Below, piece after piece: positions 150-25,345 of a DNA stretch of 64,000 bases. This DNA comes from Sebaldella termitidis ATCC 33386 (GTDB lineage: Bacteria; Fusobacteriota; Fusobacteriia; Fusobacteriales; Leptotrichiaceae): positions 2,480,001 to 2,544,000 of the forward strand of contig NC_013517.1 of assembly GCF_000024405.1 (NCBI RefSeq), read 5' to 3'. Under the pieces are notes generated by a model. The model was not told the origin of the DNA, ran no database searches, and was given only the letters and a program-made list of their open reading frames with translations. Every line of letters starts with the position of its first letter. The stretch's first letter is position 1. The position numbers and the translations under genes were made by a program.

Positions 150-600
150 ATTTTTTGTGACTATTACAAAAATAAACTGTAATAAAAAAAGAACTATCTC
201 TACTCCTTCTAAGAGATAATTCCTTGGTAGATGAAATATTATTTCATAATATCTGCCTTCTCAAATATTACTCACCTAAAATTTCTTTTTTAATAAAATA
301 TAACTTCTACTGCACACACTGTATTTTTTGCAGAAACAGCTAATTTATATTCTGCTTTTATATGTTATATTTTATTCCGCTTGTGATATATAAATTTTTA
401 TATATCAGCCTATTAGAAAATAATTTTTTTATTCTTTTTTATTTCATAAAACTCTTCATTGTACAGTTGTTTCTTATAAAAGCCCTTTGCCTTCCTGCTT
501 TATATATATATAATAATACAATCATATTTATTTTTGCTTATACAAATATTAGTTTTATCTTTTAAATATCAAATATATTTCAAAGACTGAAAATATAATT
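150..600. other. AT-rich intergenic stretch, no convincing gene
   Basis: About 450 nt of very AT-rich DNA. The open frame at 362-565 (+) has no ribosome binding site and a low-complexity F/L/I/Y composition expected of random AT-rich sequence, so I do not call it. A near-perfect palindrome sits at 384-407 (11-nt arms, TGATATATAAA and its complement). The part near 505-600 shows a diverged resemblance to 1502-1600, including a shared TGCTTATACA block, suggesting an old local duplication. Confidence 0.4.
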
Positions 601-610
601 TCAAAAATAG

Positions 611-632
611 AAAAAGCCTGCCGGCACAGACT
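611..632 (-). terminator. Rho-independent terminator of the 704-1060 gene
   Basis: On the minus strand AGTCTG pairs with CAGGCT (one G-U pair) around a 6-nt loop, followed by five T residues (615-611). It lies about 70 nt beyond the stop codon of the small membrane protein gene. Confidence 0.6.
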
Positions 633-703
633 TATTAATACTGCTAATACTGTTTATTTACTTTCAGCGAAAAGCTGGTAAGCAGTTATAAAAAAAATTT
701 ATA

Positions 704-1060
704 TTATTTTCTGGAAAAATACTTTTGTATATCAGGAATAACGAAATAAAACATAGCTATTAATGTCAAAAGCGCAATATTTCCCGGTCTTTTAAAATAT
801 AACAAATTCACTGCAAGACATATTACAATTCCGGCTACCAGTATAAGTCTGCCGGCACTTTTTCCGTAAAATGAAAATACTCCTGCCCAAATCACAAGCA
901 AACCAACAAGAAAATTTATAACAATAATATACGGTATCTGCCCTGACTGTGACAGATAATCCCATTTTTTAGAAAGAATGGATATTCCAGAATATACTCT
1001 GAGACACCCTACAAAAGTTGTAATTATACTTAATATTTTTAATGTCATAGGTTTTTCCAT
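704..1060 (-). CDS. Small integral membrane protein, unknown function
   Basis: A 118-residue protein with about four hydrophobic segments (roughly residues 7-28, 43-62, 69-86 and 92-110) and short charged loops, ending FSRK, so it is an inner-membrane protein. The ATG at 1060 is preceded by GGAGG with an 8-nt spacer, and a promoter lies at 1121-1149. A terminator follows at 611-632, so the gene appears monocistronic. I do not recognise a specific family; the size and layout resemble small uncharacterised DUF-type membrane proteins. No catalytic motif is visible. Confidence 0.7.
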   Translation of the reverse strand: MEKPMTLKILSIITTFVGCLRVYSGISILSKKWDYLSQSGQIPYIIVINFLVGLLVIWAGVFSFYGKSAGRLILVAGIVICLAVNLLYFKRPGNIALLTLIAMFYFVIPDIQKYFSRK

Positions 1061-1716: not shown

Positions 1717-3165
1717 TCAGGAATTTGCTGATAGATATTTGTCCACTGCCTTAGCTGCTTCGCGCCCTTCTCTTATTGCCCAGACTACCAGTGACTGTCC
1801 TCTTCTCACATCTCCGGCTGCAAAATACTTATCCGTGCTTGTTTTGTAGTCTGCTTCGTCAGCTTGCACATTCCCGCGCTGATCCAGCTGTATTCCAAGA
1901 TTTTTTATTAAACCCTCATGTACAGGATGTGTAAATCCAATTGCCAAAAAAATTATATCTGCTTCAATAATAAATTCAGTTCCTTTTATTTCTCTGAAGC
2001 CAAGCCTTCCGTTTTCATCTGTAAAACTTTCTGCTTTTGCTGCTTTCAGTCCCTTTATATTTCCGCTGCCGTCATTTAAAAATTCTTTGGTAAGTATATT
2101 CCATTCTCTCGGATCATTACCATACTTATCCCCGGCTTCCTTATGTGATGTTGAGATTTTCAATACAACAGGATACTGCGGCCATGGATTAGACTCTCCC
2201 CTGCTTACCGGCGGTTTGTCCATTATTTCAATTTGCGTTATTTTTTCTGCCCCCTGTCTTACCGAGGTTCCCACGCAATCTGCACCTGTGTCTCCGCCGC
2301 CTATTACCAGTACTTTTTTTCCGCTTGTATCTATTATTTCATTTTCTGTTTTTATTCCCTGATTTTTTCTATTCTGTTGTGTAAGAAAATCCATTGCATA
2401 ATAAATTCCTCTTAAATCTCTTCCTGGTATTCCGAGGTCTCTGGGATTTTTTGAACCGCACGCCAGAACTACAGCATCAAATTCTTTATTCAGCTCTTCT
2501 ATATCAATATCTTTACCGGCTTCAGTATTATATCTGAAAACAACACCTTCGTCCTCCAGCTGTTTTACTCTTCTCTGAACAATTGATTTCTCAAGCTTAA
2601 AGTCAGGTATTCCGAAAGTCAGAAGACCTCCTGCCCGTTCATCCTTTTCAAAAACAGTTACCTCATGTCCCATACGCACGAGATTCTGTGCTGCTGAGAG
2701 TCCTGCCGGTCCGCTCCCGACCACTGCTGCTTTTTTTCCTGTTCCGGATACGGCTTTTTTGGGTTTTATCCACCCATTTTCAAAACCTTTTTCTACTACG
2801 GCCAGTTCTATATTTTTTATTGCTACAGGATCATCGTTAATGCCCAGAGTACAGCTCCCTTCGCATGGTGCCGGACATACACTTCCGGTAAATTCGGGAA
2901 AGTTATTTGTAGAATGCAGAATTTCCAGTGCTCTTTCCCATTCATTATTATAGACCAAATCCTGCCATTCAGGACATATATTATCCACAGGACATGCCAT
3001 ATGACAAAACGGAATTCCGCAGTCCATACATCTTGCTGCCTGTAATTTTACATATTCATCATTCATATGTATATTAATATCTCTAAAATCTTTTATTCTT
3101 TCATCTACAGTTCTTAATTTTTTTTCTTCTCTTTTTATTTCCAAAAATCCGCCGCTTTTTCCCAT
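1717..3165 (-). CDS. gltD: Glutamate synthase (NADPH) small subunit
   Basis: 482 residues, the usual length for the beta subunit of bacterial NADPH-GOGAT. It takes electrons from NAD(P)H to FAD and passes them through iron-sulfur centres to the large subunit, which makes two glutamates from glutamine and 2-oxoglutarate. The N-terminus has the ferredoxin-like cysteine clusters (CMDCGIPFCHMAC near residue 45 and CPAPCEGSC near 97). A FAD-binding GSGPAG lies near residue 150 and an NAD(P)-binding GGGDTG near 290. The start codon overlaps the gltB stop by one base (TGATG), so the two genes are translationally coupled. A strong terminator follows. Confidence 0.96.
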   Translation of the reverse strand: MGKSGGFLEIKREEKKLRTVDERIKDFRDINIHMNDEYVKLQAARCMDCGIPFCHMACPVDNICPEWQDLVYNNEWERALEILHSTNNFPEFTGSVCPAPCEGSCTLGINDDPVAIKNIELAVVEKGFENGWIKPKKAVSGTGKKAAVVGSGPAGLSAAQNLVRMGHEVTVFEKDERAGGLLTFGIPDFKLEKSIVQRRVKQLEDEGVVFRYNTEAGKDIDIEELNKEFDAVVLACGSKNPRDLGIPGRDLRGIYYAMDFLTQQNRKNQGIKTENEIIDTSGKKVLVIGGGDTGADCVGTSVRQGAEKITQIEIMDKPPVSRGESNPWPQYPVVLKISTSHKEAGDKYGNDPREWNILTKEFLNDGSGNIKGLKAAKAESFTDENGRLGFREIKGTEFIIEADIIFLAIGFTHPVHEGLIKNLGIQLDQRGNVQADEADYKTSTDKYFAAGDVRRGQSLVVWAIREGREAAKAVDKYLSANS

Positions 3166-6100
3166 CAGCTTATCACCTCTTTAAGGAATAATTCATTATA
3201 TTTTGGCGATACAACTACCTTAAAATCACTTTTCAAATTATCCCAGTCCGATAAAATTTCTTTTGCAATTTCACTCTGAGTATATCTAAAATGATTTTCC
3301 ACATATTTTTTTATTTCTGCTTCATATACAGGTTCTAAGTTATGTATTTCGACCATTTCCCTGTTCAGTCTCTTTTCAAGCTTATTCTGTTTATCGTATA
3401 CATAGGCTATTCCACCGCTCATACCTGCTCCGAAGTTTTTCCCCACTCTTCCAAGTATTACTGCTCTTCCGCCTGTCATATATTCGCAGCCATGATCTCC
3501 TACTCCTTCTGTCACAGATACCGCACCTGAATTTCTTACACAGTATCTTTCTCCTGCTACTCCGTTAAGATACAGCTCTCCTTTTATTGCTCCATATAAT
3601 ACTGCATTTCCTCCTATTATGTTTTTAGTACTGTCATATGCAGCATCTTTAGGCTTTCTTATTATAATTTTAGCTCCGAAAAGTCCTTTTCCTATGTAAT
3701 CATTAGACTCTCCTTCAAGGTTAATAGTAATACCGCTCATTCCAAATACTCCAAAGCTTTGCCCGGCATAACCTCTGAGATTTATTTTTATAGTATCTTC
3801 CGGAAGTCCGGCTTCACCATATTTTTCGGCTATTATTCCGCTCAGCATTGCCCCGAGACTTCTGTCAGCATTTGTAATAGTATCGTTTATTACTGTTTCC
3901 TGCTTGTCTGTGATGGATTTCTCAGCTTCTGATATTAATTTCAGATCTTTTATTTTATCCATTCCGAAATTCTGTTTTTCAGTACAAATATTAGGTGTAT
4001 GATCCTCAGGATTTCTATATAGTATTTTTGTCAGCTCCACTTTTCTTGACTTCCAGTTTTCATTTTTGTAATCTACCTCAAGAAGATCGGTTCTTCCTAT
4101 CAAATCCTCTAATTTTGTTACTCCGAGTTCTGCCATGATTTCTCTCATCTCTTCTGATAAAAATCTAAAATATGTAATTATATTTTTATATTTACCTACA
4201 AATTTTGCACGTAATTCTTCAGATTGTGTGGCAATTCCTACAGGACACATATTCGTATGACACTTTCTCATCATAATACATCCTAATACCACCAAAGGCA
4301 TTGTGGCAAATCCGAACTCTTCTGCTCCCAGTAAGGCACCAAATATGATATCTCTTCCGGTTTTCAGTTTTCCGTCTACCTGCAGGACTACTCTGTTTCT
4401 TAATTTATGCTCTTTTAGCACCTGATTCGCCTCTGCAAGACCAAGCTCCCACGGCAGACCCGCATGCTTAATAGATGACAGCGGTGATGCTCCTGTTCCA
4501 CCGTCATGTCCTGAGATCAGTATCATCTCCGAATGAGCCTTTGCCACTCCGGAAGCTACTACCCCTACCCCTGCTTCCGATACTAATTTCACACTTATTC
4601 TTGCTTTGGGATTTACATTTTTCAAATCAAATATCAACTGTGCCAAATCCTCTATTGAGTAAATATCATGGTGCGGAGGCGGTGATATCAGACCTATTCC
4701 CGGTGTTGTATGTCTTGTCTTTCCTATTTCTTTATCTACCTTATCTCCGGGAAGCTGACCACCCTCTCCGGGTTTTGCTCCCTGTGCCATTTTTATCTGA
4801 AGCTCGTCTGCATTTATCAGATATGAGGTAGTTACTCCGAATCTTCCCGAAGCTACCTGCTTTGTCGCACTTCTTCTGTTATCGGTAAATCTTTCCGAAA
4901 GCTCTCCGCCTTCTCCGGAATTCGATCTTCCTCCTATCTCATTCAAAGCCATTGCCAAAGCCTCGTGTGCTTCTTTTGAAATAGATCCGTAAGACATAGC
5001 ACCTGTAACAAATCTCTTCATTATAGCTTCTACAGGCTCTACTTCCTCCAAAGGGACAGGAGTTTGCTTTTTCATCTTAAACATTCCTCTGATAGTCAGA
5101 AGTTTTTTGCTCTGGTCATTTATAATATTTGAAAATTCTTTATATGCTTTATAATCATTTCTGCTTGTAGCTTCCTGTATTTTAGCTATTGCCTCGGGAG
5201 TAAGAATATGATTTACCCCGTCTTTTCTCCATTGATATTCACCGTCATTATTCAGTACTTCCGAATGTTTTTTTATTGCATTCACAGCTTCTGTATGTCT
5301 GAGTCTTGTTTCCTTTTCCAGTGCCTCTATATCCAGACCTTCTATTCTGGAAACTGTTCCTCTGAAATATTTATCCACAAGTTTTTGCGAAAGCCCCAGT
5401 GCTTCAAAAATCTGAGCCCCTCTGTAGCTCTGCACAGATGAGATACCCATTTTTGCCATTGTTTTCAATAATGCTTTTTCCAGTGCCTTTATTATATTTT
5501 TTATGTATTCCTGCTTATCAGACTGAAGATATAATTTTTTTGCCAGCATATAATCCACAGAATCAAATGCAAGATACGGATTTATCAAAAGTGCCCCGTA
5601 TCCTACCAGTAAGGCAAAATGCATTATTTCTCTTGCTTCCCCTGTTTCCAGAATAATATCTATACCGCTTCTTTTCTTTTTTTCTATCAGATAATGATGT
5701 AAACCGGCTGTTGCCAAAAGAGAAGGTATTGGTATTTTATTTTCCCCGGCCTTTTTGTCTGAAAGAACTATTACTTTTTTTCCGTTTTCTATATCTTCTT
5801 CCACGGATCTGAATATTTCATTCAGCTTTTCTTCAAGGCTTTCATCTGATTTATCAAATATAATATCTTTTATTGCTATGCTTTCTTTATATTCATTTTT
5901 TATAAAATCTAAAGTTTTATTATCTATAACAGGTGACTCAAAGACCATTGTCCTGCTGTTTTCCGGTGTATTAAAAAGCAGATTCCCTTTTGTTCCCAGT
6001 TCGCTTTTCAGTGACATTACCGATTTTTCTCTTATAGAATCTATAGGAGGATTCGTTACCTGTGCGAATAACTGCTTGAAATAATTAAACAGCAGTCTCG

Positions 6101-7616
6101 GCTTTTCGGAAAATACAGCAAGTGCCGTATCATTCCCCATTGATCCCAACGGTTCATTACTGCTGGATGCCATTTCAGATATTATTATGCCGAGATCCTC
6201 ACGGGTATAACCAAAAATTCTCAGCTGTTCTTCTATTATGGAAAGCTCTCTTCTTTCTTCTTTATATTTATAATTTTTCAGTTCTTTTTCTGCGTATCTT
6301 TTATTCTTAAGCAAATCCGCATAATCAGTGTTATTCAGTATTTTTTCCAGAGTAGCTTCCTTATCAAGAACCTTGCCTTCTTTCATATCCAAAAGAAGAA
6401 TTTCACCCGGTCTCACTCTTCCGCTTTCCTTTATATTTGAAAACTCTGTAGGAAGAGTTCCTACTTCCGACCCGGCTATTATGTAATTATCCTTGGTTAT
6501 CAGGTATCTAAGCGGTCTCAGTCCGTTTCTGTCAAGCTTTGCCAGTATATATCTTCCGTCTGTCATGGCAAGTGCCGCCGGACCGTCCCACGGCTCCATA
6601 AGACTGGAATAATAATCATAAAAATTTTTAAGTTTTTCCGGCATTTCACTGTCTTTTTCCCATGCTGCAGGGACTAACATTGAAATTGCTTCTATTAATG
6701 TCTTTCCGGAAAAAAGTAAAAACTCCAGCGCTGTATCCAGATTAGCTGAATCACTTGCTAAATGATCATTTACAGGAAAAAGTGCTTCTATTTCGGAATA
6801 TGCTTCCGAGCTCAGGGCAGGCTCTCTTGAAACCATCCAGTTAACATTTCCCTTTACAGTATTTATCTCCCCGTTATGTGCAAGAAAACGAAAAGGATGA
6901 GCCAGTTCCCATTTTGGAAAGGTATTGGTACTAAATCTCTGATGTACCAGACAAAACTGACTTTCCATCTTATCAGACTGAAGGTCAATATAAAATTTTT
7001 CTATCTGGTCCGGCTTTATTAAGCCCTTATATACAATTATTTTTGATGAAAGCTTTGTAATATAAAATTCTTCAATATTTATATCAAGAGTTTTCACTTT
7101 ATTTTCTATTTTTTTTCTTATAATATATAATTTTTTTTCAAACTCTTCTTTTGCCGAAGCTGTTCTTTCAATAAAAAGCTGTTCTATCTCCGGAAGGGTT
7201 CTTTGTGCTTCTATACCTACCGCATTTCTGTTTACAGGAACTTTTCTCCAGTAAAGAATCTTTTCCCCCTCTTCTTTTACAGTTTTTTCGGCTATTTCCT
7301 TTATTATACGTGCATGATCAGGATTTACCGGCAAAAATATATTTCCTGTTCCATAATCCCCCATTTTCGGCAGATTTTCACAAATATCCCTAAAGAACGC
7401 ATCGGGAATCTCGAAAAGAAGACCTGCTCCGTCTCCGGTTTCGGAATCATATCCGGAAGCTCCTCTATGCTCCAGTCCCATTAGTATTCTTATTCCGTCT
7501 TTAATTGTTTTGTTGGTTTTCAGCCCGTCTATATTAGCTATAAACCCCATCCCGCAGTTATCTTTTTCAAATTCTCTCTCAAACAATGATTTTTCCATAA
7601 ATCTTTTCTTTTCCAA
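3165..7616 (-). CDS. gltB: Glutamate synthase large subunit
   Basis: 1483 residues, normal for the alpha subunit. It hydrolyses glutamine, channels ammonia to 2-oxoglutarate and reduces the iminoglutarate at FMN. The N-terminal glutamine amidotransferase nucleophile is Cys21 (DNCGMGF), which implies removal of a 20-residue propeptide. The central and FMN domains follow, with the 3Fe-4S cysteines in GCIMMRKCHTNMCP, then the C-terminal glycine-rich beta-helix domain. The chosen start is TTG at 7616, 9 nt after GGAGG; an ATG at 7598 is in frame but has no ribosome binding site, and another ATG closer to the GGAGG is out of frame. It is divergent from glnN, forming a GS-GOGAT locus. Confidence 0.96.
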   Translation of the reverse strand: MEKKRFMEKSLFEREFEKDNCGMGFIANIDGLKTNKTIKDGIRILMGLEHRGASGYDSETGDGAGLLFEIPDAFFRDICENLPKMGDYGTGNIFLPVNPDHARIIKEIAEKTVKEEGEKILYWRKVPVNRNAVGIEAQRTLPEIEQLFIERTASAKEEFEKKLYIIRKKIENKVKTLDINIEEFYITKLSSKIIVYKGLIKPDQIEKFYIDLQSDKMESQFCLVHQRFSTNTFPKWELAHPFRFLAHNGEINTVKGNVNWMVSREPALSSEAYSEIEALFPVNDHLASDSANLDTALEFLLFSGKTLIEAISMLVPAAWEKDSEMPEKLKNFYDYYSSLMEPWDGPAALAMTDGRYILAKLDRNGLRPLRYLITKDNYIIAGSEVGTLPTEFSNIKESGRVRPGEILLLDMKEGKVLDKEATLEKILNNTDYADLLKNKRYAEKELKNYKYKEERRELSIIEEQLRIFGYTREDLGIIISEMASSSNEPLGSMGNDTALAVFSEKPRLLFNYFKQLFAQVTNPPIDSIREKSVMSLKSELGTKGNLLFNTPENSRTMVFESPVIDNKTLDFIKNEYKESIAIKDIIFDKSDESLEEKLNEIFRSVEEDIENGKKVIVLSDKKAGENKIPIPSLLATAGLHHYLIEKKKRSGIDIILETGEAREIMHFALLVGYGALLINPYLAFDSVDYMLAKKLYLQSDKQEYIKNIIKALEKALLKTMAKMGISSVQSYRGAQIFEALGLSQKLVDKYFRGTVSRIEGLDIEALEKETRLRHTEAVNAIKKHSEVLNNDGEYQWRKDGVNHILTPEAIAKIQEATSRNDYKAYKEFSNIINDQSKKLLTIRGMFKMKKQTPVPLEEVEPVEAIMKRFVTGAMSYGSISKEAHEALAMALNEIGGRSNSGEGGELSERFTDNRRSATKQVASGRFGVTTSYLINADELQIKMAQGAKPGEGGQLPGDKVDKEIGKTRHTTPGIGLISPPPHHDIYSIEDLAQLIFDLKNVNPKARISVKLVSEAGVGVVASGVAKAHSEMILISGHDGGTGASPLSSIKHAGLPWELGLAEANQVLKEHKLRNRVVLQVDGKLKTGRDIIFGALLGAEEFGFATMPLVVLGCIMMRKCHTNMCPVGIATQSEELRAKFVGKYKNIITYFRFLSEEMREIMAELGVTKLEDLIGRTDLLEVDYKNENWKSRKVELTKILYRNPEDHTPNICTEKQNFGMDKIKDLKLISEAEKSITDKQETVINDTITNADRSLGAMLSGIIAEKYGEAGLPEDTIKINLRGYAGQSFGVFGMSGITINLEGESNDYIGKGLFGAKIIIRKPKDAAYDSTKNIIGGNAVLYGAIKGELYLNGVAGERYCVRNSGAVSVTEGVGDHGCEYMTGGRAVILGRVGKNFGAGMSGGIAYVYDKQNKLEKRLNREMVEIHNLEPVYEAEIKKYVENHFRYTQSEIAKEILSDWDNLKSDFKVVVSPKYNELFLKEVIS

Positions 7617-7770: not shown

Positions 7771-7831
7771 CAGTGTATCAGTATAATGTCATGTTCATAA
7801 ATCAGCCGTATAACACTGGATACGAACATTA
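7771..7831 (-). promoter_or_regulatory. Inverted-repeat cluster upstream of gltB
   Basis: ATGTTC (7791-7796) pairs with GAACAT (7824-7829), enclosing GTAT/ATAC (7808-7811, 7820-7823). A competing pairing joins CAGTGT (7771-7776) with ACACTG (7813-7818). This could be an operator or a folded leader controlling gltB. It matches no riboswitch I recognise, and I found no convincing minus-strand promoter next to it. Confidence 0.3.
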
Positions 7832-8008
7832 CATCACACCAAAAATTTACTTGTTCTTATATTCTACTATATTTTTCAAAAAATAAAAAATTTATTCTCT
7901 TTATGAAACATAAAAAAAAATTCATCAGCTGTTTTTGTCAATTTATTCAATGTTTTTAGTACTTTTTATAAAATGTCAAGCTTTTTTAATCATTAAATAA
8001 ATTTATGC

Positions 8009-8038
8009 TTGACTTGAAAGGCATAAATATAATATAAT
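8009..8038 (+). promoter_or_regulatory. Promoter of the glnN transcript
   Basis: TTGACT (8009-8014), 18-nt spacer, TATAAT (8033-8038). Transcription should begin near 8045, about 18 nt before the predicted ribozyme cleavage site, giving a leader of about 200 nt before glnN. Confidence 0.7.
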
Positions 8039-8063
8039 CATTTAGGGATTAAAAAAAATGAAA

Positions 8064-8215
8064 GCGCTAGGGCTAAAATACCAAATATTTTAGTTGACGA
8101 GGAGAGAGAATTATCGAGACTATCAGCGGGTATTCTCTGGGTTGTAACAACCTAAAAGATAATAACAAACCTTATAAGTAATTATATGAACAAAAATATC
8201 TTAGTTACTAATCTC
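8064..8215 (+). ncRNA. glmS-type self-cleaving ribozyme in the glnN leader
   Basis: The conserved core of the glucosamine-6-phosphate-activated glmS ribozyme is recognisable. Cleavage would fall between A8063 and G8064 (A|GCGCU). P1 is CTAAAATA (8073-8080) paired with TATTTTAG (8086-8093). The invariant TTGACGAGG follows at 8094-8102, then TTATCGAGA at 8111-8119 and AGCGGG at 8125-8130. AGAGAA (8105-8110) pairs with TTCTCT (8133-8138), enclosing the active-site strand as in known examples. The substrate strand CGCU (8065-8068) pairs with AGCG (8125-8128), whereas Bacillus has CGCC with GGCG, so the pair has covaried. P3 is GGTTG/CAACC at 8140-8152. The P4-like hairpin (AGTAA 8177-8181 with TTACT 8205-8209) is less certain. 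The downstream gene is glutamine synthetase, not glmS. Confidence 0.88.
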
Positions 8216-8245
8216 TGAAATTTAAATTATTTGGAGGAATCATTT

Positions 8246-10354
8246 ATGGAAACTATGGAAAACAAGATGAAACTCTTCGGGGAAAATGCCTTTACTGACA
8301 AAAACCTGAAAAAAAGAGTTCCAAAAGATGTTTTTAAAGAATTTAAGCTTTCGCAGACTGGTGAAGTGGAACTTTCCCTTGCATCTGCCGAAGTCATTGC
8401 CAATGCTCTGAAAGACTGGGCAATAAAAAGAGGAGCCACACATTACAGCCACTGGTTTCAGCCGCTTACAGAGCTTACTGCTGAAAAGCACGACTCTTTC
8501 CTTGACCCGTCAAGTGATGAAGAAATTATCTACAGATTTTCTGGGAAAAGCCTTATAAAAGGTGAACCTGATGCATCTTCATTTCCTAACGGAGGTCTTA
8601 GAAGCACTTTTGAAGCCAGAGGATACACAGTGTGGGATACAAGCTCACCACCCTTCATAAAAGAAAATAAAAACGGAGCTACTCTATATATTCCCACTGC
8701 ATTTATATCATATAACGGTGAAGCCCTTGATAAGAAAGTTCCGCTTCTCAGATCCATGTCTGCTGTTAATAAGCATGCTTTAAGAATTTTGAGAGCACTG
8801 GGTAATACCACTGCAAAAAACGTTGTATGTACATTGGGTGTTGAACAGGAATATTTCCTAATCAAAAGAGAGTTTTTTGAAAAAAGGGAAGATCTTCTTC
8901 TTACAGGAAGAACACTTTTTGGAGCACCGGCTCCGAAAGGCCAGGAACTAAATGACCATTACTTTGGTAAAATAAAAGAAAAAGTAATAAACTTTATGAG
9001 TGATCTTGATGCAGAGCTTTGGACAGTAGGTATCTCATCTAAGACAAGACATAATGAAGTTGCACCAAATCAGTTTGAGATAGCTTCTTTATTCAGTCTT
9101 GCCAATCAGGCCTCTGATCAGAATCAGGTTATCATGGAAACAATTGAAAAAGTCGCACTAAGACATGACTTGGTAGCACTTTTACATGAAAAACCTTTTG
9201 CCGGCGTAAATGGTTCCGGAAAACATAACAACTGGTCACTTGCTACAGATGACGGTGAAAACCTCCTTGAACCAGGTTACAGTCCGGAAAGAAACCTTCA
9301 GTTTTTACTGTTTTTATCGGCTGTTATAGAAGCTGTTGACAGATACTATCCTTTATTAAGAGTTACTACAGCAAGTGCTACAAATGACCACAGACTGGGA
9401 GGACATGAAGCGCCTCCGGCTATTATTTCAGTATTTCTCGGTGATCCGCTGACAAGTGCTCTGGAATTCGTAGCCCTGAATAAAGACAGTCTGCGTGAAG
9501 CGATAGAAAATCTGGAAATGGGAATAGAAAGTCTTCCAAAACTTCCGCTTGATTCAGGAGATAGAAACAGAACATCGCCTTTTGCCTTTACAGGTAATAA
9601 ATTCGAATTCAGAATGCCCGGTTCCAGCTCTACACCTGCGACAACGGCTGCTTCAATAAACATAATCGTATCAAAGGTTCTGTCTGAATATGCAGACAAG
9701 CTTGAAAATTCCAATGATATAGAAAAAGCTGTTATTTCAATTATCACTGATGCGTATAAAAAGCATAACAGAATTATATTTAACGGAGACGGTTACAGTG
9801 AAGAATGGCATAAAGAAGCTGAAAAAAGAGGACTCAGCAATATTATTGCTGCCAGTGACTCATTAAGTACTTTCCTTGATGAAGAAATTACACAGATATG
9901 TGAAGAAATGAAAATACTAAGCAGAACAGAACTCGAGTCCCGTTATAATGCATATGCGGAGAGATATGTAACACAGTTATCTATAGAATCGAAGACTCTT
10001 ATAGAAATTGCCAATAAGGATATTATACCGGCAGCAATAAAATATGCTAATATTCTTGCTGACAATATAGAAAAAACATCTAAAATCTATACAGGAATGA
10101 CTACAGTGCAGGAAGATCTGCTAAAAGTAGTTCTTGAAAATATTACAGTCATAAAAACAGGTATTACATGCCTTGAAAGTAAGCTTTTTGAACTGAATAA
10201 AATTAATTCCATATCAGAACAGCTTGCATTCGCACATGACGAGTTTCTCAAAGGACTGAATGACCTGAGAGAGCCGTGTGATACTCTGGAAAAAATAATA
10301 GACAGAAATATCTGGCCTATGCCTACTTATAAGGATCTTTTATTTTTTCTGTAA
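8246..10354 (+). CDS. glnN: Glutamine synthetase type III
   Basis: 702 residues, the typical size of the GSIII (GlnN) family found in Bacteroides, cyanobacteria and anaerobes, far longer than the roughly 450-residue type I enzyme. It makes glutamine from glutamate, ammonia and ATP in the cytoplasm. Family-typical segments include VEQEYFLI, NGSGKHNNWSL and GGHEAPPA, in the metal- and ATP-binding core. The ATG at 8246 sits 8 nt after GGAGG; an in-frame TTG at 8231 overlaps the ribosome binding site and is rejected. A promoter and a glmS-type ribozyme precede the gene, so message stability is probably controlled by glucosamine-6-phosphate. A nested hairpin terminator follows. Confidence 0.96.
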   Translation: METMENKMKLFGENAFTDKNLKKRVPKDVFKEFKLSQTGEVELSLASAEVIANALKDWAIKRGATHYSHWFQPLTELTAEKHDSFLDPSSDEEIIYRFSGKSLIKGEPDASSFPNGGLRSTFEARGYTVWDTSSPPFIKENKNGATLYIPTAFISYNGEALDKKVPLLRSMSAVNKHALRILRALGNTTAKNVVCTLGVEQEYFLIKREFFEKREDLLLTGRTLFGAPAPKGQELNDHYFGKIKEKVINFMSDLDAELWTVGISSKTRHNEVAPNQFEIASLFSLANQASDQNQVIMETIEKVALRHDLVALLHEKPFAGVNGSGKHNNWSLATDDGENLLEPGYSPERNLQFLLFLSAVIEAVDRYYPLLRVTTASATNDHRLGGHEAPPAIISVFLGDPLTSALEFVALNKDSLREAIENLEMGIESLPKLPLDSGDRNRTSPFAFTGNKFEFRMPGSSSTPATTAASINIIVSKVLSEYADKLENSNDIEKAVISIITDAYKKHNRIIFNGDGYSEEWHKEAEKRGLSNIIAASDSLSTFLDEEITQICEEMKILSRTELESRYNAYAERYVTQLSIESKTLIEIANKDIIPAAIKYANILADNIEKTSKIYTGMTTVQEDLLKVVLENITVIKTGITCLESKLFELNKINSISEQLAFAHDEFLKGLNDLREPCDTLEKIIDRNIWPMPTYKDLLFFL

Positions 10355-17569: not shown

Positions 17570-18368
17570 ATTTTATTCCTTTTATAAATATTTTATTTTT
17601 ATCAGCAAAATTTATTACTTCTTCCTGATCTATAAATAACATATGCTCTGATTCTATTACTATACCTTTTGCTTTTATCTCTGCTGCTTTTTTTACTGTA
17701 TCTATCCCGATTGTAGGTATATCAATTCTGTAATCCTGATTCGGACGTGCCATCTTCACTACTATACAGTCTTTCCCTGCATACTCGCCCGCACGCTCTA
17801 TTGTTTTATCAGTTCCTTCTACTCCTTCCAGAGCAACCACTGATTCATTCTTTACCACTACAGTTTGCCCAGCGTCAATAGCAGTAAGCATTCTTGCAGC
17901 CTCTATTCCTATTTCTATAGTTTTCATATCATCAGGAAGCGCTTTTCTCCTAGTGTACTCCACTTCCTTTGCCATATATCTGTCCATAAGAAAATTCTGG
18001 GGTAATACTTCTATCCCTTCTTTTTCCAGATGGTTTATAATTGCCATCAGTATATTTTTATCTTTTTTATTTCTGGTACTCATCAATATTTTTGTTGCAA
18101 CCAAATCAAATTTTAAATTGGAAAATATAAGATTTTTCTCCACTTTCCCAAGCATAATTAATTTACTTATTTCCTTTGATTTTAAATACTTTATTATTTT
18201 CCCCACCTGGGCAATACTGTATTTTACAGAGTTCGCATATTCTTTTATTTTGTTATCCACTCCGTCAAAAAGATAAATAGGATATACCTCATACCCTTTA
18301 TCTACAGCCTCTTCCAAAAATAAAGTCGGGAGCTTTCCAGCTCCTGTAATAATTGCAATTTTATTCAT
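17562..18368 (-). CDS. lpxI: UDP-2,3-diacylglucosamine pyrophosphatase, LpxI type
   Basis: 268 residues of the LpxI (former DUF1009) family, which cleaves UDP-2,3-diacylglucosamine to lipid X and UMP. LpxI replaces LpxH in many bacteria. The family look is clear: N-terminal IAIITGAGKLP, a central MLGKVEK, and the C-terminal DAGQTVVVKNESVVALEGVEGTD and PTIGIDTV segments. The start codon overlaps the lpxA stop (TAATG), so the genes are translationally coupled. It sits exactly between lpxA and lpxB, matching the order of the pathway. Confidence 0.93.
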   Translation of the reverse strand: MNKIAIITGAGKLPTLFLEEAVDKGYEVYPIYLFDGVDNKIKEYANSVKYSIAQVGKIIKYLKSKEISKLIMLGKVEKNLIFSNLKFDLVATKILMSTRNKKDKNILMAIINHLEKEGIEVLPQNFLMDRYMAKEVEYTRRKALPDDMKTIEIGIEAARMLTAIDAGQTVVVKNESVVALEGVEGTDKTIERAGEYAGKDCIVVKMARPNQDYRIDIPTIGIDTVKKAAEIKAKGIVIESEHMLFIDQEEVINFADKNKIFIKGIKYE

Positions 18369-19144
18369 TATCTTGTAATACCTCTTTTACTTTTTTTGAT
18401 AAAAGCTATTATATGGTCTATATTTTTATCGTCAGGAAATTTTTCTTTCAGCTGAACAAGAGCTTCTTCCAGCTTCAGTCCTCTTTTGAATATTATCTTA
18501 TAGCTTTCTCTCAGATTTTTTATTTCTTCTTCTGTAAAGCCTCGTCTTTTAAGACCGGTAATATTTATATAAGCTGCTCTTGCTTTATTTCCTTCAGCAA
18601 GAGTATAAGGAACCACGTCCTGATTTACTGCAGAAGCACCGCCTACCATAGCATGACGTCCTACTCTTACAAACTGGTGTATAGGTGTCAGTCCGCCGAT
18701 TACAGCATACTCTTCTACATATACATGTCCTGCTAGTGTAGCCCCGTTCGCAAGAATACAATTATCCTCTACCATACAGTCGTGCGCAATATGAACATAG
18801 GCCATTATCAGACAGTTATTGCCTACTGTTGTTTCGAATCTATCCTCAGTTCCTCTGTGAATTGTAACAAATTCTCTGATTTTATTATTGTCTCCGATAA
18901 CGACTCTTGTTTCTTCACCGTGAAATTTCAGATCCTGAGGTACTTTTCCTATAGAAACAAATGAAAAAATATAATTTTTCTTACCTATTATTGTTTCACC
19001 CTCTACCACAACATGAGATTCCAGCACTGTTCCGGAATCTATCGATACCTGTGGTCCGATTATACAATACGGTCCTATCTTTACATCATCTGCAATTTTG
19101 GCTCCAGCGGCAATAATTGCAGTTTCATGTATATTTTTATTCAT
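18368..19144 (-). CDS. lpxA: UDP-N-acetylglucosamine acyltransferase (active LpxA)
   Basis: 258 residues of left-handed beta-helix hexapeptide repeats plus a C-terminal helical domain ending in SKRGITR, as in all LpxA enzymes. It transfers a hydroxyacyl chain from ACP to O-3 of UDP-GlcNAc, the first step of lipid A synthesis. The catalytic residues aligned to E. coli are intact: YVHIAHDC (His122/His125), LAGHV (His144) and PIHQF (His160, Gln161), and glycine in MVGGAS matches the hydrocarbon-ruler Gly173. It lies directly downstream of a second, defective-looking copy. Confidence 0.94.
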
Positions 19145-19173: not shown

Positions 19174-19950
19174 TTATCTTGCTATTCCCCTTTTGCTTTC
19201 CCTGATAAACTGTATCATATGCTTGATATTTTTATCATCGGGAAATTTTTCCTGCATCTGTCTTATTGCTTCTTCGAGTTTGTTCCCTCTTTTAAAAATT
19301 ATTTTATATGCCTCTTTCAGATTTCTTATTTCATCTTCGCTAAAACCACGCCGTCTCAGACCTACCATATTTATGAAAGCCGAGTTGGCCTTAACGCCTT
19401 CTGCCAGAGTAAAGGGAAGTATATCCTGAAATACGTACGAGGCACCGCCTACCATAGCATGACATCCTATACGTACATTTTCATAAACAGGAGTCAGAGC
19501 ACTTATAATAGCATTAGTTTCCACATATACATGTCCGGTTAATGTCACATTATTTCCCAGAATACAGTTGCTTTCTATTGTACAGTCATTTCCTATATGG
19601 ACATAGGCCATTATCAGACAGTTATTCTCTATTTTTGTTTCGAATTTATCTTCGGTTCCTCTGTGTATGGTTACAAATTCCCTGATTTTATTGTTATTCC
19701 CTATTGTTATTTTCGTGTGTTCGTTTAAATAGTCGATATCCTGCGGCATCTTTCCTATTGAAACAAATGAATATATATAATTATTTTCACCGATGGTCGT
19801 ATCTCCGTCCAAGGTCACGTGTGACTCCAGAACAGTTCCGGCACCTATACTTACCTGAGGCCCTATAATACAAAACGGACCTATTTTTACATCATCAGCT
19901 ATTATGGCTTTATCTGACACAATAGCTGTTTCATGTATATGAATACTCAT
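19174..19950 (-). CDS. LpxA paralogue lacking the catalytic histidine
   Basis: 258 residues, closely similar in length and repeat register to the neighbouring LpxA, with the same C-terminus (SKRGIAR). Aligned to E. coli LpxA, the general base His125 is replaced by Asn (HIGNDC, Asn121 here) and the His160-Gln161 pair is replaced by Tyr-Glu (PVYEN), while His122 and His144 positions are kept. It is therefore probably catalytically dead or altered in substrate. LpxA is a trimer with active sites at subunit interfaces, so a mixed trimer or regulatory role is possible. The start at 19950 has GGAGGA 5 nt upstream; a TTG four codons earlier is rejected. Confidence 0.88.
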   Translation of the reverse strand: MSIHIHETAIVSDKAIIADDVKIGPFCIIGPQVSIGAGTVLESHVTLDGDTTIGENNYIYSFVSIGKMPQDIDYLNEHTKITIGNNNKIREFVTIHRGTEDKFETKIENNCLIMAYVHIGNDCTIESNCILGNNVTLTGHVYVETNAIISALTPVYENVRIGCHAMVGGASYVFQDILPFTLAEGVKANSAFINMVGLRRRGFSEDEIRNLKEAYKIIFKRGNKLEEAIRQMQEKFPDDKNIKHMIQFIRESKRGIAR

Positions 19951-19985
19951 ATTTTCCTCCAAATAGTAATACTTCCTTAATATTA

Positions 19986-25071: not shown

Positions 25072-25345
25072 ATACTAGCCATACACCGAACTCTCGAAAT
25101 AACTCAATATATGTTTCGACAGACAAAGGCTCAAAAAAAGCTACCCTACAAACCCAGAAACTTTCGACTTAGTGCTGCTTCGTTCCCGACCTGACACGAT
25201 TCACCGACATCCTGCAATATAGGACTTTTTTCTCAACGCCGCTGCCTGAAGGCTTTATACCAAATTACCCCTCAAGCTCAGATTCACCTCCACTAGAGCG
25301 GGTTGTGGATACAGGGCACCGCTAATTCCCCGGCTAGTATGGCAA
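25072..25345 (-). ncRNA. ffs: Signal recognition particle RNA, large bacterial type
   Basis: About 274 nt, matching the size and arrangement of the Bacillus scRNA with an Alu domain. Near the 5' end, GCGGTGCCCTGTA and the CCGCTCTAG block match the Alu-domain sequences conserved in Bacillus. The S domain carries GTCAGGTC-GGGAAC-GAAGCAGC, the Ffh-binding helix 8 with its GGAA tetraloop and asymmetric loop. The ends close by ATACTAGCC (5') with GGCTAGTAT (3', 25080-25072). A near-consensus promoter precedes it. The RNA pairs with Ffh to target nascent membrane and secreted proteins. Confidence 0.93.

Follow-up and report, generated by a model that had tools for sequence, protein, structure and literature searches.

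The glmS ribozymes have been treated as a feedback device for one gene, and hence as a drug target. Their usual setting is the 5' UTR of glmS, and the class is marked by cleavage between A(-1) and G1, after which come CGC and a bulged nucleotide 6. In B. subtilis, the only organism from which this route is known, RNase J removes the cut glmS message. A 2011 survey by McCown, Roth and Breaker reportedly placed all but two glmS ribozymes in glmS mRNAs, according to its abstract. Metabolite control at the RNA level that bears on glutamine synthetase is known from the cyanobacterial glutamine riboswitch (Klahn 2018, cited in PMC11477304); that system differs in belonging to another RNA class, in having glutamine as its ligand and in involving no ribozyme.

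Here we describe the leader of glnN in Sebaldella termitidis ATCC 33386, within a window of 64,000 nucleotides (all positions below are those of the window unless another contig or locus is named). By computation, we found a complete glmS-class ribozyme with intact active-site motifs and a conserved promoter-like site upstream, kept before glnN in four of four Sebaldella genomes, as well as a second ribozyme on glmS. Compared to the RF00234 glmS ribozymes, as in Bacillus, Thermoanaerobacter and the glmS leader of this genome itself, this one has the same full-length covariance match, cleavage site, P2/P2.1/P2.2 double pseudoknot and P3/P4 elements, and the same distance of about 35 nt to the start codon, but its predicted target is a type III glutamine synthetase (GSIII) gene instead of glmS and its pair 5-53 is U-A.

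Results

A first-pass annotation, made from the letters alone, had placed a glmS ribozyme before glutamine synthetase and proposed a covariance-model search as a check. The Rfam model RF00234 (release 15) matched positions 8052-8211 (+) over its full length (model positions 1-167 of 167) with 82.6 bits (E = 1.8e-17, calculated for the window), well above the gathering score of 37, and the gene downstream encodes GSIII, so that the usual glmS 5' UTR setting is replaced by another gene. The motifs TTGACGAGG, TTATCGAGA and AGCGGG occur in that order, as the annotation had read them, and its A|GCGCU site corresponds to the A(-1)|G1 step at 8063/8064 (+), the cleavage site predicted from alignment to the Rfam consensus AaAGCGCC. 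The segment AAAGCGCUAG at 8061-8070 supplies this step, the CGC that follows it and the bulged nucleotide 6; AGCGC is present in 87 of 87 ribozymes that we compared.

The remaining parts of the fold were likewise found in place on the + strand, including the P1, enclosing stem and P3 that the annotation had listed. P1 (8071-8095) has 8 bp, GGCUAAAA with UUUUAGUU, of which the first two are G-U, and is followed by the core GACGAGG (8096-8102), which holds the catalytic guanine and the P2.1 5' strand and is identical in all 87 ribozymes compared. P2 (8105-8138; 6 bp, AGAGAA with UUCUCU) encloses UUAUCGA and AGCGG. Within UUAUCGA, the P2.1 3' strand UCG (8114-8116) pairs with CGA of GACGAGG in all 70 ribozymes that could be parsed for pairing, and the P2.2 5' strand CGCU (C2 G3 C4 U5; 8065-8068) pairs with the downstream AGCG (8125-8128) in all four glnN ribozymes. 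The seven pairs of the P2.1/P2.2 pseudoknot are all formed in four of four glnN ribozymes, and both helices are paired in 70 of 70 parsed ribozymes, these four included. P3 is a 5-bp hairpin (GGUUG UAA CAACC; 8140-8152), and P4 (8156-8202) has an internal loop (AACAAA ... GAACAAAAA) and a GUAA-capped tip; the purine-rich P3/P4 internal loop is present, its AACAAA and GAACAAA matching AAAac and ACAaAG of the model in the alignment.

The annotation had also noted CGCU paired with AGCG in P2.2 as a compensated change. Of the 87 ribozymes compared, one of which is from Bacillota, 82 have C-G at pair 5-53. The other five have U-A; these are the glnN ribozymes of the four Sebaldella genomes and a single ribozyme of the glmS type (G031). 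There are no mixed pairs. The compensated change is therefore real, and since G031 shares it, it is not unique to the glnN ribozymes. Most single changes at this pair strongly cut the rate of a Thermoanaerobacter core construct (PMC7125110).

Upstream of the ribozyme lies the best promoter-like site of the region (11/12), TTGACT (8009-8014) and TATAAT (8033-8038) separated by 18 nt on the + strand; both hexamers are unchanged in four of four Sebaldella leaders. From this site, transcription would be expected to start near 8044-8047, about 18 nt upstream of the cut. A start inside the core had been named as an argument against the ribozyme; we found no other promoter-like site inside the core or between the ribozyme and the glnN ATG. 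We also found no intrinsic terminator in the leader on the + strand, and thus rejected the idea that the leader acts through one. The match to the ribozyme model stops 35 nt short of the ATG and leaves the GGAGG Shine-Dalgarno sequence outside. Since there is neither a terminator nor a second promoter-like site before the ATG, cleavage and decay are the fitting read-out, and it is the known cleavage-then-decay control of glmS, not attenuation or the masking of a site, that the anatomy of this leader fits.

The glnN gene (8246-10354, +) encodes a protein of 702 aa with N-terminal (GSIII_N, PF12437, 241 bits), catalytic (PF00120, 75.8 bits) and C-terminal (Gln-synt_C-ter, PF18318, 142.1 bits) domains of a type III enzyme. 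Its likely start is the ATG at 8246, which follows the GGAGG, although the ORF listing gives a TTG at 8231. Its divergent neighbor is gltB, for the glutamate synthase large subunit (3165-7616, -; ORF and tblastn), with gltD at 1717-3165 (-; ORF). In the two other genomes looked at for this by tblastn, G001 and G003, gltB also adjoins glnN (90% and 76% identity). Between gltB and glnN there is an imperfect palindrome, ATGTTCATAA...GGATACGAACAT (7790-7840), partly kept in G002 and not seen in G001 and G003, which might be a gltB operator. Elsewhere on the - strand of the window are two lpxA-like acyltransferase genes that adjoin and resemble each other (18368-19144 and 19174-19962), apparently duplicated in tandem, and a bacterial large SRP RNA (25079-25342; RF01854, 142 bits).

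A search of the genome with the catalytic domain PF00120 returned a single match, glnN, and thus the ribozyme would control the sole detected enzyme of its kind. The annotation had asked whether glmS here has a ribozyme of its own; it does (C1:1646397-1646638, -; RF00234, 65.9 bits), 35 nt before the gene. This glmS-linked copy (L003) has an insertion of about 80 nt in P1, while the glnN-linked copy is compact; G001 and G003 have glmS-ribozyme matches of similar length to L003.

We found glmS ribozymes in 81 of 98 Fusobacteriota genomes and GSIII in 88 of the 98. By tblastn, the genes downstream of all 86 Fusobacteriota ribozymes found are glmS (82) and GSIII (4). The annotation had asked whether glnN in other Fusobacteriota carries the same leader; it does in the other three Sebaldella genomes (ribozymes of 84.0, 87.7 and 72.3 bits), but not elsewhere in the phylum, where none of the ribozymes found precedes glnN. 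The distance to the ATG is 35 nt in three Sebaldella genomes, and the position of the ribozyme in G003 is almost the same. Three Sebaldella genomes also have the glmS-linked ribozyme; G002 (86% complete) shows the glnN-linked one only. At the glnN loci of seven Leptotrichiaceae near Sebaldella, a search with a lax E-value gave no trace of a ribozyme.

In the tree, a single clade (support 1.0) unites the glnN ribozymes and is nested among those of Leptotrichiaceae (0.98), a placement that leaves a recent transfer from Bacillota unsupported. The simplest reading of these sequences is one duplication that would predate the split of species whose GSIII proteins are 82% identical, the lowest identity among Sebaldella. 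We also considered that the ribozyme might be left from a lost glmS once located between it and glnN, and found no support for this: gltB is divergently beside glnN in S. termitidis, G001 and G003, and the seven nearby Leptotrichiaceae loci without a ribozyme trace speak against it as well.

When S. termitidis is set against the most distant Sebaldella, the ribozyme is 79% and the promoter 80% identical, but the distal intergenic region only 25%. A count of pairs over the four glnN copies alone gave 94% paired, but covariation did not rise above shuffles, because four such close sequences are too few and too similar; the sole two-sided pair change among them is U-A to C-G, in P4. The useful evidence is the contrast in conservation together with pair 5-53 across 87 sequences, rather than four-copy covariation. 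G003 has a G just before UCGA, at a position that is A in 82 of the 87 ribozymes and U in four glmS-type ones. This G and the basal G-U pairs of P1 are weak points of the glnN ribozymes.

In a sample of 398 Bacillota genomes, we found the ribozyme in 265, with two copies in only four. The extra targets in these four are a type I glutamine synthetase, an F1,6BP aldolase/phosphatase, glmM and a second glmS. At the sampled single-copy loci, glmS was downstream in 19 of 19, and these two counts together indicate that targets other than glmS are rare. At one of these loci (L184), a GlmS-like protein without the glutaminase domain (588-1670) is encoded directly behind the ribozyme, with a full glmS next.

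The type I case (L188, in genome G172) has a ribozyme at 2266-2418 (-; 101 bits) before a glutamine synthetase at 862-2214 (-; TIGR00653, 578 bits), and this genome also has a ribozyme on glmS. The class of ribozyme and the kind of target are those of the Sebaldella leader, but the enzyme is an unrelated type I glutamine synthetase, the lineage belongs to Bacillota and pair 5-53 is the consensus C-G. The sequence recurs on contigs SLNR01000032.1 and SLAN01000028.1, from soda-lake sediment MAGs, and this arrangement is known from one soda-lake lineage, only on short MAG contigs with conflicting taxon labels. When named genomes were searched with the type I glutamine synthetase, a motif search of 80 loci showed a ribozyme before glnA in none but the two copies of this soda-lake sequence.

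In the second case (L189), a ribozyme at 552-725 (+) precedes the F1,6BP aldolase/phosphatase gene at 928-2052 (592 bits). By searching the taxonomic class of that genome, we found the same arrangement in three additional genomes (G601, G602 and G603; loci L273, L275 and L276), which belong to two other genera and have ribozymes of 106-111 bits, for a total of four Bacillota genomes in three genera. In the third case (L165), ribozymes at 1441-1594 and 3098-3251 (+) precede glmM (585 bits) and glmS, respectively. The non-glmS targets found make a GlmS substrate or act on the GlmS product. The glutamine synthetase and aldolase/phosphatase cases together indicate recruitment of the class to genes that supply both GlmS substrates; being independent, the type I and aldolase/phosphatase cases suggest that this supply is a recurrent target.

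Discussion

From its sequence, the glnN leader very probably carries a true member of the glmS class, a self-cleaving ribozyme that depends on GlcN6P, has its origin in a Leptotrichiaceae glmS ribozyme and is located before the only glutamine synthetase detected. By analogy with the class, GlcN6P most likely cleaves this leader and RNase J, which the genome encodes (632 bits), removes the message: high GlcN6P would serve as the catalytic cofactor, the RNA would be cut at 8063/8064, and the glnN message with its 5'-hydroxyl end would be degraded. GlcN6P would then feed back both on GlmS and on the supply of its substrate glutamine, which would link amino-sugar status to ammonium assimilation. 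Since ribozymes precede both glmS and the only detected glutamine synthetase, wall-sugar supply probably helps set nitrogen assimilation in Sebaldella.

The first-pass annotation had given falling demand for glutamine as the logic of this control, a workable reading but one of two. In the second, the ribozyme and the cut are the same and the signal is a surplus of nitrogen: growth on amino sugars raises GlcN6P, NagB frees ammonium, and glutamate dehydrogenase replaces the costly glutamine synthetase route. The genome encodes proteins that fit this: one clear NagB (404.5 bits), another match that passes the cut-off, some lower-scoring NagB-like proteins and a protein of the glutamate dehydrogenase type (306 bits). 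Sebaldella was isolated from the termite intestine. We regard nitrogen surplus as a possible signal, to be held tentatively, because it does not explain the F1,6BP aldolase/phosphatase and glmM cases, which fit control of GlcN6P supply; the aldolase/phosphatase parallel in particular favors supply control. The two are not exclusive, and the logic may be either one or both acting together.

We think it unlikely that the ribozyme is a relic, copied with a fragment of the glmS promoter and now an inactive or weak part of a mere 5' leader. Such decay might account for U-A at pair 5-53, the G-U pairs of P1 and the changed nucleotide before UCGA in one species. However, U-A at 5-53 also occurs in an ordinary glmS ribozyme, all four genomes preserve the catalytic motifs even though their distal intergenic sequence falls to 25% identity, and the seven other Leptotrichiaceae glnN leaders examined are without a ribozyme. 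A glmS fold with a changed cofactor, such as another amine-bearing metabolite tied to nitrogen status, is most improbable: a new target gene could favor a new ligand, and pair 5-53 is off consensus, but in four of four the GACGAGG, UCGA and GCGG strands, from which the active site and the ligand pocket are built, are the same as in the glmS type.

The annotation had called the arrangement undescribed. We found no description of a glmS ribozyme on a glutamine synthetase in a literature search outside of which the McCown 2011 survey and a 2012 review lay, but the locus may be among the two non-glmS cases of that survey, since the genome sequence of S. termitidis was already available in 2009 (PMC3035275). 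The chance that this single locus is tabulated there is near one half. The class of ribozyme is well known; the unusual element is glutamine synthetase as its target. Even if the glnN locus was tabulated, we know of no earlier recognition of substrate supply as a recurrent target of glmS ribozymes.

These loci lead us to favor, with reasonable though not strong confidence, the view that GlcN6P-sensing ribozymes serve small regulons that extend past glmS. Their further members would be the genes for glutamine synthetase, of type III in Sebaldella and of type I in a soda-lake lineage of Bacillota, and for the F1,6BP aldolase/phosphatase, the source of fructose-6-phosphate, in three Bacillota genera, together with glmM. 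If this is true, a self-cleaving RNA class thought to control a single gene is a transferable control element at the level of a pathway. In Sebaldella, with a ribozyme before the only detected gene for converting ammonium to glutamine, beside the glutamate synthase genes, GlcN6P would join cell-envelope synthesis to nitrogen assimilation, and in bacteria of this kind a mimic of GlcN6P would then act against glutamine synthesis in addition to glmS.
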